From: Natronolimnobius sp. AArcel1
GTDB taxonomy: Archaea > Halobacteriota > Halobacteria > Halobacteriales > Natrialbaceae
Direction: 5' to 3'
NCBI RefSeq assembly: GCF_011043775.1
Contig: NZ_JAAKXY010000006.1
Span: forward strand, 186,001 to 250,000
Length of the DNA stretch: 64,000 nt
Below are positions 31,315 to 36,596 of this stretch, piece after piece; positions within the stretch are counted from its first letter, which is position 1; every line of letters begins with the position of its first letter. A model generated the notes under the pieces. That model saw nothing but the letters and a program-made list of their open reading frames with translations, was not told where the DNA came from and did not search any database. The translations under genes were made by a program, and so were the position numbers.

Positions 31315-31495
31315 TGTGCTTCACCATTACACACGATAAATAATAAATTTGTGGGTAGTTGGTGTTCTGTCTGGTCGTGGGGCTACTCGAGGGTTCCGTT
31401 GGTTCAGCATAACTGGCAGTGTCACTGCCGTTTCGCGCCGACATGTCAGGTAGTGGTCGAAACAGTAATTAATCATCGGTGTGGACTGTCTGGAC

Positions 31496-31888
31496 ATGGC
31501 CAAAGATACCGTCAGGTACCCCGACGCAGTCGTCGAGGAAATCGACGCACTCGTCGACGACGGTATGTTCGAGAGCAAATCCGAGTTCTATCGGTTCTCC
31601 GCGGAGTACGTGTTGACGCTCATCAACGCCGAACATGAGGTCGAGACGTTCAACTTCGACGAGATCAAATCCGAACTCGACATCTCTCGAGCGGACCACG
31701 CGAAAGCACTCGGCACCGACGGCGGCACCTTCTTCCTCGATGCCGTCATCACCGTCCGAAAGCACGGGCTTCGCGGCGACTATGAGGCTGCCGAGCGCTA
31801 CATCGATACGCACTACGAATCTACCGATCAGGAGTGTATTATTCTCGAGGAGTTGCTCGGTACCTACCGCAGCGGACCGTCGACGTAA
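31496..31888 (+). CDS. Ribbon-helix-helix (CopG-like) regulator with C-terminal effector region
   Basis: A 130-residue protein. MAKDTVRYPDAVVEEIDALV, then FESKSEFYRFSAEYVLTLI is a standard RHH N-terminal DNA-binding module (~1-45). The remaining ~85 residues, with DAVITVRKHGLRGDYEAAER, are helical and acidic. The N-terminal module resembles that of the haloarchaeal CdrS/CdrL cell-division regulators, but the likeness is general to the fold. AGTAATTAATC about 25-30 nt upstream is a good TATA box. Start at 31496 preferred to 31481 on this spacing. Confidence 0.82.
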   Translation: MAKDTVRYPDAVVEEIDALVDDGMFESKSEFYRFSAEYVLTLINAEHEVETFNFDEIKSELDISRADHAKALGTDGGTFFLDAVITVRKHGLRGDYEAAERYIDTHYESTDQECIILEELLGTYRSGPST

Positions 31889-32017: not shown

Positions 32018-34864
32018 TCACCGCGTTGCCCGCCGACCGAAGACGAACACCAAGATTGCGAGTAAGATCACGCCCGAAGCGGTTTCTGCGACTGCGAGTA
32101 CCTGTCCACCGCGGGTTGTCGGTCTGAAATCCCCGTATCCCAGCGTCGTAAACGTGAGCGCGCTGAAGTAGAGGCCGTCGAACAGCGAGATGGGATCACC
32201 GCTGTCTCCAACCCGCTCGATGAGGTCGAACACCCAGTACGCCAGTCCACAGAGGACAACCGTGAGCGTCCCCGTTCCAAGCACGCGCCACGGGCTTTCG
32301 CCGTATCTGGCGACGACACTCGGTACGATTGACCGACAGACCATTTGCCAGTCGGCCTCCCGTCGATACTGCCGCAACTGAATATCTTTCCGCCCGAGAA
32401 AACACTGACTTGCCAGCCGTGAGAGGCTGTTCTCACGGGCCAGCGACTCGAGAGTTCCGTACGTCTCGGCGGCTTTTTCCACGGCGTCTCCCTCGTTCGG
32501 CGCTCCACCGTCTGCAGTGACGGTCTCACCCATCTGGGGATACCGAGGGTCGTACACACAGTACGGTAGCATTCCACCGCGAGCCACCGTCTTGATGCGC
32601 TGAAGGAAACTCCCCTGGAGCGCCGACTCGGCGGGAGAATAGAGGTGTTGGAGTCGCCCGTCTGTCGTTGTTTCCGGCCAGAACCGCGTTTTGCGATTGA
32701 TTCGTGCATCGCCGAGCAACGCGCCGTACAGGGCGGCACCGACGAGGTCTGCATCCAGCAAATAGGCCCTGCTAAGCCGTGCACCTTCGAACGAAGCCCC
32801 GGTGAGGATCGCTCCTGACAGATTGGCTCCTGACAGATCCGCTCGGTTGAAGGTCGCTCGAGACACGTCGCCGTCGCCCGTAAAATCGGCCCCGGCGAAG
32901 TTCACATTTGAGAGATCGGCCCGATCGAACGTTGCGTTCGCGGGGAACCTGGCGTCGCTAAAGTCTACACCGGCCAGAAACGTCACGTCGCGACAGTCGA
33001 GTCGGTCGCCGAAGACCGGCGTTCGGTCGCGAGTGCGTCCGGTCGTCTCTGTCGACTGGCCGTCGGCCGGCGTCTCCAGAAACGTCGGCTCATGACGGAA
33101 GGTCGCCCCGCTGAAGTCGAACCGACCTCGTGTCCAGTCATCCGCGGTAAGTGCGAACGTAGATTCCATCTGCCCGCCGGCAAACGAGAGGTCCGTGGTC
33201 GAATCGAATTGCTGCTCGCGAAACGACGTTTCGGAGCGAAAGATGACGTTGGCGAACGAGATCTGGCCGTTCCAGTCCATCTCGTCGAACTGCGCGCGCC
33301 CGGTTCCCGCGGTGGTGAACCTCGAGTCAGCGAACGTCAGCGTTCCCTCGTCCTCGATGAGGTCTGCGTCGACGAACAAAATACTCCCATCGCCGTCAGT
33401 TTCGAACCGTGACTTGGCGAACGTCACCGTTCCGCCGTCAGCGCGAAATTCCACGCCGGCAAACGAGATGCTCTGGGCTCCGGTCGTCATGAACGTCGCC
33501 TCCTCGAACGAGGTCCGTCCGCCGGATGCGGTAATGTCTGCATCGTCGAAGAACAGCCGATTCGATGCCTCAAACGTCGTTTCATCGAACGAGATCCCCG
33601 TGTCGTCCGACGCGGAGAACGTTGCGTCTCGAAACGAGATGTTACTGCCGGCGAGGAACGCCGCGTCGTCGAACGACACAGTACCCGGTCCGCTGGGTTC
33701 GAACGTCGCATCGTAGAACGAAATGTTGGCGTCGCCTTCGGTGTGAAACCGTGCCTCGTCGAATCGAATGTCTCCGTCGCCGCGGGCCGAAAACGCCGTG
33801 CGGACGAAGCAAACGGTCCCACGTCCCGCGGTCGTAAACGACGCCTCGTCGAACGAGAGATTGCCTGACCCCTCGGTGCGGAACGTCGCATCATCGAACG
33901 CAACGCTACCGTCGTCATCGCCCGCGGCGACGAACGCCGTGTCGTGGAACGAAACCATCCCGCTCGAGGCGGGTGCGAACGTCGCATCGGCGAACGAGAC
34001 GGGTCCTGCCGTCGCACGGAACGTCAGCCCGTGAACGAACACGTTACCTGCGTCAGCGGTCCTGAACGCTGTTTCCTCGAAGGAAATCCCCGCTTCTCCC
34101 TTGGCTAGGAAATCGGTGTCGTAAAACCAGATGTGACCCGCACCGGTTGCGTTGATCATCGCGCCGTCGAAGGAGACGCCCGAGGATGCGGTGACCGACG
34201 CGTTCCGAACTGATACTGTGCCGCCCGCCGCGGTCGTGAACACAGCATTGTCGAACCGAACGTCGCCGTTGCTCTCGGTGAGAAAACGCGCGCCATCGAA
34301 GACGATGTCGCCGTCACCGTCGGTCCTGAACGTCGCCTCCTCGAACGAAATGTCGCCGCCCGCAGCGGCGAACGTCGCACCAGCGAACGAAACCGGTTGC
34401 TCACCGGTCGTCCGTATCGTTGCCCCTTTGAACGAGACGTCGTCCTCGTCGCCTCGAAAGACGGCGTGATCGAACCGCAGATCCCGAGTCCCGTCCGCGA
34501 CGATTTCGAGGTCGTCGGCCTCGAGCGAGGCGAACGTCGCGCCGACAAACTGGCCGCGGTGTTCCTGCCGGTCGTCCTGTGGGGCATCCCCGACCGCGTC
34601 GATTGCGCCCAGCAGCGCGGCTCGCTCGTCTACGTCGTCGGGGCGCTCGTCGGGTGGCGTATGAAAGATGCAGCGATGCTCGTCGTCGCTGCTCGAGTCG
34701 TCGACATCCGCGAGCGGCGGGTGAGGGCAGACCCAGACTGTCGTGTCAAGTCCACCGCGGTCCGGCTCTCTGTCGAGCATCCACTGCTCCTGGGTTTTCC
34801 CGTGCCACGTTTCCGGCTCACGTTTGCGAGCCACGTATCCACAGACGGTTTCGCTGTCGCACAC
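32018..34864 (-). CDS. Giant repeat-solenoid protein fused to a two-TM potassium channel pore
   Basis: A 948-residue protein. The GTG at 34864 is chosen because the N terminus then starts with a Cys/His cluster (CDSETVCGYV...VWVCPHPP...HRCIFH), usual in haloarchaeal pentapeptide proteins. Residues ~128-545 are about 26 copies of a 15-residue unit of the form (I/V)SF(D/E)(D/E)ATFxxxGxG. Residues ~640-730 are classical pentapeptide repeats (NRADLSGANLSGAILTGASF). After a ~110-residue cytoplasmic region come TM1 (LGTGTLTVVLCGLAYWVFDL), pore helix and filter SALTFTTLGYGDFRP (K+-type TxGYGD) and TM2. Expected to be a tetrameric cation channel with four large beta-solenoid arms. No neighbouring partner is evident. 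Confidence 0.9.
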   Translation of the reverse strand: MCDSETVCGYVARKREPETWHGKTQEQWMLDREPDRGGLDTTVWVCPHPPLADVDDSSSDDEHRCIFHTPPDERPDDVDERAALLGAIDAVGDAPQDDRQEHRGQFVGATFASLEADDLEIVADGTRDLRFDHAVFRGDEDDVSFKGATIRTTGEQPVSFAGATFAAAGGDISFEEATFRTDGDGDIVFDGARFLTESNGDVRFDNAVFTTAAGGTVSVRNASVTASSGVSFDGAMINATGAGHIWFYDTDFLAKGEAGISFEETAFRTADAGNVFVHGLTFRATAGPVSFADATFAPASSGMVSFHDTAFVAAGDDDGSVAFDDATFRTEGSGNLSFDEASFTTAGRGTVCFVRTAFSARGDGDIRFDEARFHTEGDANISFYDATFEPSGPGTVSFDDAAFLAGSNISFRDATFSASDDTGISFDETTFEASNRLFFDDADITASGGRTSFEEATFMTTGAQSISFAGVEFRADGGTVTFAKSRFETDGDGSILFVDADLIEDEGTLTFADSRFTTAGTGRAQFDEMDWNGQISFANVIFRSETSFREQQFDSTTDLSFAGGQMESTFALTADDWTRGRFDFSGATFRHEPTFLETPADGQSTETTGRTRDRTPVFGDRLDCRDVTFLAGVDFSDARFPANATFDRADLSNVNFAGADFTGDGDVSRATFNRADLSGANLSGAILTGASFEGARLSRAYLLDADLVGAALYGALLGDARINRKTRFWPETTTDGRLQHLYSPAESALQGSFLQRIKTVARGGMLPYCVYDPRYPQMGETVTADGGAPNEGDAVEKAAETYGTLESLARENSLSRLASQCFLGRKDIQLRQYRREADWQMVCRSIVPSVVARYGESPWRVLGTGTLTVVLCGLAYWVFDLIERVGDSGDPISLFDGLYFSALTFTTLGYGDFRPTTRGGQVLAVAETASGVILLAILVFVFGRRATR

Positions 34865-34926: not shown

Positions 34927-36534
34927 CTATGGATCGAAATCGGGTCCTAACCCCAGTCTTTCGAGATCGACGTGCTCGCGGACGAGCGCTGCTGCACGGT
35001 CGGCAGGTGTTTCTCTCGACTCCGTGCCAGTTGAGTCACATCCGTCAGTTCCACCCGGCGGCCACTCGACGCCCGCCGACGCCGCGACGGACTCGAGAAA
35101 CGCCGTTCGAATCGGTGCGTTGTCGAACAGGCCATGCAAGTAGGTGCCACACACCTGTCCACAGGCCGCGCTTTCATCCTCGAGCGGGCTCGAAACGTCC
35201 CCAAGTGCCCGTGTTCGGCCGGCGTGAATCTCATAGCCTGTAACCATCTCGCCATCCGCGGCCGCGAGCAACGGGCTTGCGTCACCGTCGACCGAGACGG
35301 CGGTTCGCTCGAGACATTTGCTGTCCTCAAAGCGGGTTTCGACCGGGAGCAGTCCCAGTCCGGTGACTGTGTTGGCGTCATCGGTGCCCTCGAGTGCGGC
35401 GTTCGTGAGCCGCTCGCCCAGCAACTGGTAGCCACCACAGAGGCCGATGATTGGCCCCTCAAACGCCGAGATTGCGTCACCGACCGGCGACCCGCGGAGT
35501 GCGCGCAGGTCATCAACCGTGTTCTTCGTCCCCGGAACGACGACCGCATCGGCCCCAACGGCCTCGAGCGGATCATCGCTTCGAGTGTGCTCGCGCTCGA
35601 GCGGGACGAATACGACCGAGACACCCGGTTCACTCGCCAGCGCCTCGAGATCAGTCGCGTTCGAGAGTCGCGGGAGTCTCGGAACGGCGATTCGAACGCG
35701 CTGGTTGGCCGGGACCCCATCATCGTCACCGAGCGAACCACGCTCGTCCGTCGCAGGAAGCGAGACGCTGTCTTCTTCGGGGAGTCCGGGGTCGTCATAC
35801 GGTATGATACCCAGTATTGGAACGCCAGTTCGCGATTCGATCTCCGCGATGCCGTCCTCGAGCAGCGACGGATCGCCGCGGAACTTGGTGATGACTGCGC
35901 CAACGACCTGCTCGCGCAACTCTGTTGGCATCAACTCGAGGGTACCGTAGAGGCTGGCGAAGGCACCGCCGCGTTCGATATCGACCAGTACGAGAATATC
36001 GGCGTCGGCGAAACGAGCCGTCTCAACGTTCGCCAAGTCGCGGTCATGGAGATTGATTTCGGCGATGCTGCCCGCACCCTCAGCAATGATAACATCGTTG
36101 TCGGCTGCCAGTCGCTCGTAGGATTCGACCGCGCGCTCGCGTGCGAACTCCCAATGGTTGTCGTAGTAGTGAGATGCTGGAACGTGCTCGCGGGCCTCGC
36201 CCTGAATAACGAGTTGGCTTTCGCCATCGCCGCGCGGCTTCAATAGAACGGGATTACAGTCCGTCGTCGCCGTCGTTCGCGCTGCTCGAGCCTGGACGAA
36301 CTGCGAAACGCCGATTTCGCCCCACTGGGCACTCGAGTCGGCAGTCTCAGTCTCCAGCCCGTCGCTCGAGGGCGGGGACGGACTGGGAACGACTCGAGCG
36401 TTGTTACTCATGTTCTGTGCTTTGAAGGGTGCGACCGCTTTGTCCTGATCTGCAAGGAGGCGACAGAGACCGGCCGCGACGGTCGATTTGCCAACGTGGC
36501 TTGCAGTGCCAGCAACCAGCAGGGTGCGTGTCAT
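34927..36534 (-). CDS. cobQ: Cobyric acid synthase
   Basis: A 535-residue protein starting [20 protein letters not shown] with a P-loop-like [48 protein letters not shown] and [21 protein letters not shown] mark the synthetase half. [22 protein letters not shown] (glutaminase Cys) and [12 protein letters not shown] mark the GATase half. It amidates side chains b, d, e and g of adenosylcobyrinic a,c-diamide in B12 synthesis. The 6-codon upstream extension is rejected. Same strand as cobO further downstream of the ABC genes. Confidence 0.95.
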
Positions 36535-36596
36535 CCGCGTACCAGACGCCACGCGGAGAGGGTGTATCGGCGTATCGGTTTCAGCCGTCGGTGACG

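Follow-up and report, generated by a model that had tools for sequence, protein, structure and literature searches.

The gene on the reverse strand at positions 32018-34864 of the window (the whole stretch of 64,000 nucleotides analysed here, from Natronolimnobius sp. AArcel1) encodes a predicted two-transmembrane (2-TM) K+ channel subunit with a very long N-terminal arm of pentapeptide type, and we lean slightly towards the reading that this arm is cytoplasmic and gates the channel. The order of the modules, the K+ filter, the fold of the arm and the kinship to the channel protein HalA are read from the sequence or from structure prediction; the features are as follows:

32018..34864 (-): whole gene, predicted K+ channel with pentapeptide arm, 948 aa (open reading frame, domain matches, dN/dS 0.21)
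34535..34864 (-): residues 1-110, N-terminal Cys/His module, probable zinc knuckle (motif in 58 of 67 relatives, alignment)
33299..34483 (-): residues 128-522, 27 predicted loop-extended pentapeptide units (unit parse, AlphaFold2, HetL superposition)
33035..33298 (-): residues 523-610, transition of irregular beta-helix coils (AlphaFold2 strands)
32690..32992 (-): residues 625-725, canonical pentapeptide repeats (PF00805 / PF13576; Foldseek, VIA)
32297..32689 (-): residues 726-856, linker and helical hairpin, with RYGESPWRV before TM1 (AlphaFold2; YGE-P conserved)
32021..32296 (-): residues 857-948, 2-TM pore, the inner helix being the end of the protein (GRRATR) (PF07885; fold matches)
32129..32146 (-): residues 907-912, TLGYGD selectivity filter (sequence; G-[YF]-G-D conserved in three alignments)

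The reading frame starts with GTG and has no internal stops. Its homologue in a congener (genome G096, locus L017; 956 aa, 72% identity) has the same start and organisation, and the dN/dS values between the two (0.21 for the whole gene, 0.26 for the 15-residue array, which is thus also constrained, and 0.09 for the pore, where constraint is strongest) indicate that the protein is under purifying selection.

The Cys/His cluster that had been noticed at the N-terminus is real: it consists of C8, C46, C65 and H68, and the motif C...C...Cx[FW]H stands at the start of most of the collected pentapeptide-channel proteins of Archaea and Bacteria (58/67), from Halobacteria to Pseudoalteromonas, Vibrio and Nitrospinota. 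The module is probably a zinc knuckle, with zinc as its presumed ligand. It is followed by the array, in which the distances between phenylalanines alternate between 5 and 10 residues. Phe periodicity at 5 and 15 is well above that of shuffled sequences; the protein has 29 Phe pairs at a distance of 15 residues, where 6.6 are expected and the best of 2000 shuffles reaches 15. Dynamic programming parses residues 128-522 into 27 units of about 15 residues, bearing out the roughly 26 copies of the original prediction, and places Phe at register position 4 in 25 units and at position 9 in 22; this is the same five-residue pair that had been assigned to positions 3 and 8. The consensus of the unit is (D/N)(V/I)SF(D)(D)ATF-xTxGxG and its composition by position, (D/T/N)(V/I)SF(D/E)(D/E/G)(A)(T)F(R/T)(T)xGxG, reads as two pentapeptides followed by a Gly-rich stretch. 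Sixteen steps are exactly 15 residues long and the remainder 13, 14 or 17, the variation falling after the second Phe and before the Val/Ile that follows.

The array of the window protein stays below the Pfam pentapeptide cut-offs (Pentapeptide_4, 15.0 versus 38; Pentapeptide_3, 10.3 versus 27), and the array of a Natrialba homologue has no match to these models. The window array does score above the cut-off of VirK (PF06903; 29.9 versus 23.7 bits), and arrays also match DUF7289; in the absence of other evidence for either, both matches were taken as compositional. For the VirK match at 33299-34483 of the window, the alternative is that VirK carries a similar repeat. Ca2+-binding loops of the DGDGD or RTX type were ruled out, as the loops of the window protein conserve only Gly and not Asp.

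The C-terminal half is as originally described. The short run of true pentapeptide repeats lies at residues 625-725, with at least eight contiguous five-residue repeats, a PF00805 match of 2.9e-13 (49.5 bits, cut-off 20.2) and matches in Foldseek and VIA to HetL, Rfr23 and beta1 designs. Three linker helices (791-811, 815-835 and 839-854 in the AlphaFold2 model) lead to the motif RYGESPWRV, which precedes TM1 and of which YGE-P is conserved across the alignment. The pore is matched by Ion_trans_2 (PF07885; residues 870-947, 4.2e-14, above cut-off) and modelled as two transmembrane helices and a pore helix (858-878, 894-906 and 918-947) with the GYG filter; its fold matches KirBac, NaK and HalA. 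In the aligned family members no domain follows the inner helix, and as the protein ends there, regulation must come from the N-terminal side.

Relatives were found by profile query of genome contigs; direct protein query gave no match. Among 596 candidate stretches of GTDB contigs, at least 389 are relatives with a pentapeptide-linker-pore fusion, and such fusions are found in 74 of 391 Halobacteria genomes at 1e-25, with many weaker matches covering linker and pore only. Other members are annotated as 'pentapeptide repeat-containing protein' or 'potassium channel family protein'. The architecture of zinc knuckle, pentapeptides, linker and pore is thus widespread in Archaea and Bacteria: the original prediction was right that pentapeptide-channel fusions exist and that the 15-residue version has a restricted spread, but the fusions in general are not rare. 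The search with the 15-residue array matched 8 of the 391 Halobacteria genomes at 1e-8, one of which (G244) has the 13-residue version of Halogeometricum, and in a wider draw across the phylum the array was matched only in the genus of the window. The six channels with 15-residue units form one Natrialbaceae clade (support 100/99), outside which no such channel was found. Relatives in Bacteria are about 325 residues long and lack the 15-residue array, and unit number among relatives ranges from about 6 to 31-34. In the homologue of Natrialba sp. SSL1 (L026:5213-6622), a 45-bp unit is repeated 31 times in tandem in the DNA and codes for near-identical 15-residue units. In Halorarius halobius, a single chromosome encodes at least five pentapeptide K+ channels that are paralogues of one another (L028, L029, L031, L032, L033).

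The genome of the window has a paralogue on contig C3 (L016:4519-6450 (-)) that is 48% identical over window residues 6-212 and has the same Cys/His module, 17 array units and a 2-TM domain without the K+ filter (AFTVAPPRIPS). An orthologue of this paralogue is present in another family (genome G315, L166:3293-4876 (+)). In a tree of the C-terminal halves, a branch of 3.8 changes per site separates these two from the channels. Rapid divergence may have cost them the filter; otherwise the arm would have been fused to another kind of membrane domain. A third relative in the same genome (L171:3504-5498 (-)), cut by the end of contig C7, combines the Cys/His motif with degenerate repeats rich in F and a membrane end that lacks the filter.

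The neighbouring genes were named from their translations. A cobQ gene (cobyric acid synthase, 34927-36552 (-)) is located on the same strand, 62 bp upstream of the channel gene, and the two may be co-transcribed. Downstream and convergent is the gene of an RHH regulator (31481-31888 (+)), followed by those of a small MTH865-like protein and a Bat-type regulator. This arrangement around cobQ recurs in the congener and, in part, in Natronorubrum, but Natrialba SSL1 and G089 lack it; no conserved partner gene was found across these neighbourhoods.

The gene product would be one subunit of a tetrameric 2-TM K+ channel with neither a voltage sensor nor a C-terminal RCK domain. All regulatory parts would be cytoplasmic and N-terminal to the pore: the zinc-knuckle-like cap, the long beta-helix and the helical hairpin, which leads directly into the outer pore helix. 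A ligand or a partner protein would bind the crown formed by the four arms and shift the hairpin and the outer helix, so that the pore opens or closes, as in HalA; given the kinship with a channel family that includes HalA, the rod is probably the gating sensor. It could instead be a passive spacer or anchor that binds a cytoplasmic structure or stabilises the tetramer, the array expanding and contracting nearly neutrally and gating occurring through the short canonical crown only, a reading we consider rather unlikely. The array-less bacterial relatives, the weaker constraint on the arm than on the pore and the tandem repeat of Natrialba SSL1, a sign of recent slippage, would all agree with a spacer, and a unit number that ranges from about 6 to over 30 is as compatible with a spacer as with a sensor. 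However, every complete relative in the clade retains the array in an open frame, and the array is itself under selection (dN/dS 0.26) and is present in two different membrane-protein backgrounds. Against the gated-channel reading we counted the absence of a conserved gene neighbour, the variable number of units and the non-significant result of a parity test on the array (described below).

For residues 610-948 (AlphaFold2, pLDDT 85.6, pTM 0.81), the best fold in the PDB is that of HalA, the effector channel of the Hailong anti-phage system, solved with oligodeoxyadenylate (entry 9nyi; Foldseek 1.2e-7). HalA is a DNA-repressed, nucleic-acid-gated defence channel, in which a ligand on the crown acts on the pore. 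VIA superimposes the whole model on HalA residues 37-356 (Z 15.9, 266 residues) with the same order of modules. The NCBIfam model of HalA has sub-cut-off matches in 20 of 49 family members, its profile positions 50-156 falling on the pentapeptides and 165-336 on linker and pore. HalA is absent from the best 60 PDB sequences found with the linker-pore profile, so the link to HalA rests on the fold and on the NCBIfam model. The window protein could accordingly be imagined as a HalA-type antiviral effector, its channel kept shut by a nucleic-acid signal on the crown and the loss of this signal causing ion flux and growth arrest; the identical module order and the patchy distribution within the taxonomic family (8 of 125 genomes) fit, but we regard this role as improbable. 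The window gene is not HalA itself, because it reaches only 11.3 bits with the HalA model NF051894 (cut-off 250) and because no HalB above cut-off was found anywhere in the genome, the adjacent genes being cobQ and the RHH regulator. PADLOC gave zero matches for the gene and five neighbours. The arm is also strongly acidic (net charge of the array -42 over 395 residues), which does not favour the earlier suggestion that the solenoid binds DNA; this argument is weakened by the general acidity of halophile proteins and by the DNA ligand in the HalA structure. The HalA channel is reportedly blocked by poly-dA adducts of HalB (PMC13275509). Gating through the crown thus has a precedent in HalA, which is no proof that it occurs here.

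AlphaFold2 prediction of the full protein, built on an alignment of 35 sequences, has a mean pLDDT of 87.2 and a pTM of 0.76. The array is modelled as a parallel beta-solenoid with two four-residue strands per unit (pLDDT about 90-97, mostly above 90), which supports the claim that a very long, ordered solenoid of non-standard type is joined to the channel pore; residues 523-610 are also modelled as strands, mostly with pLDDT 76-96 and with low values near 600-620. VIA superimposes the array on HetL, a pentapeptide protein of the canonical four-sided type, with Z 16.2 at 2.6 A, aligning 227 of the 237 HetL residues over model residues 144-488. As these 345 residues are 23 units, 9.9 residues of every 15 are aligned: about 10 residues per unit would follow the pentapeptide helix and five would be looped out, two units closing one coil with loops at two opposite corners. 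Some right-handed helices, tailspike among them, exceed the Z score of HetL (maximum 21.7), but they superimpose at 3.5-5 A and were taken to share the general architecture. The model thus predicts a right-handed four-sided beta-helix of pentapeptide type with 30 residues per coil, in which each 15-residue unit would consist of two pentapeptide sides (VSFDD, ATFRT) and a Gly-rich corner loop of roughly five residues, and the loops would line up in two rows on opposite corners of the rod. In the sequence, identity at outward positions is slightly higher at a lag of two units than at one or three, a difference that is not significant, so the four-sided reading rests on the prediction. A three-sided solenoid in which every unit forms a complete coil, as originally suggested, is very improbable: the fixed period of 15 residues equals three pentapeptide lengths and three-sided relatives of pentapeptide proteins exist (PMC13123833), but the HetL superposition fits 30 residues per coil, and the presumed third pentapeptide, a corner loop in the model, varies in length by several residues, leaving the F-x4-F pairs undisturbed.

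The four-sided reading agrees with relatives that have other unit lengths. Plasmid proteins of Streptomyces have a 12-residue repeat (GGTVSFRSATFS), Halogeometricum limi a 13-residue repeat (GDGDVSFSGAEFT) and Natrialbaceae archaeon Tc-Br11 a 16-residue repeat; units of 12, 13, 15 and 16 residues differ in the loop only, which bears out two pentapeptides plus a loop and makes a three-sided coil unlikely. The 12- and 13-residue versions match Pfam Pentapeptide_3 at 1e-45 to 1e-22, whereas the 15-residue version is below cut-off; tblastn with the 15-residue array retrieves 12-residue arrays. Nature thus offers a series of pentapeptide helices with corner loops of about 2, 3, 5 or 6 residues beyond the canonical turn, which is useful for solenoid design. 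Tentatively, the regularly loop-decorated solenoid and its zinc cap may be a portable sensor that was joined to at least two membrane effectors, the K+ channel and the filter-less 2-TM protein, with the two loop rows forming a repetitive surface to which a polymeric ligand or partner would bind, thereby gating the channel.

We found no study of prokaryotic pentapeptide K+ channels in a literature search, and ion channels are absent from a 2021 review of pentapeptide proteins; comparison is possible with four known groups of proteins. The Streptomyces plasmid proteins (NZ_CP109263, NZ_CP108037) resemble the window array in their F-x4-F units, Gly loop and tens of copies; unlike the window protein, they have 12-residue units, N-terminal membrane helices and no channel. 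The two loci (L134:2284-3843 and L135:1254-2969) each encode some two dozen loop-extended units. With HetL and other Rfr-fold proteins (PF00805, PF13576), the array shares the predicted right-handed four-sided beta-helix, the Phe core and the A-x-F sides. HetL has two isolated corner loops (PMC8145042), whereas the window array would have a loop at every second corner and does not reach the Pfam pentapeptide cut-offs. The other pentapeptide-repeat K+ channel proteins have, like the window protein, the C...C...Cx[FW]H motif, pentapeptides, YGE-P and a TLGYGD pore at the protein end, but their repeats have a periodicity of five residues and not of 15. Together these pentapeptide-armed channels are a broad family of Archaea and Bacteria with a zinc-knuckle-like cap, a pentapeptide crown, a helical hairpin and a 2-TM pore. 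HalA shares pentapeptides, helical linker and 2-TM pore, in this order, with the C-terminal half of the window protein, which adds the 15-residue array, for which the HalA chain of 333 residues has no room. As HalA, the one relative found with a solved structure, is a nucleic-acid-gated defence effector, the other members of the family are concrete candidates for ligand-gated K+ channels.
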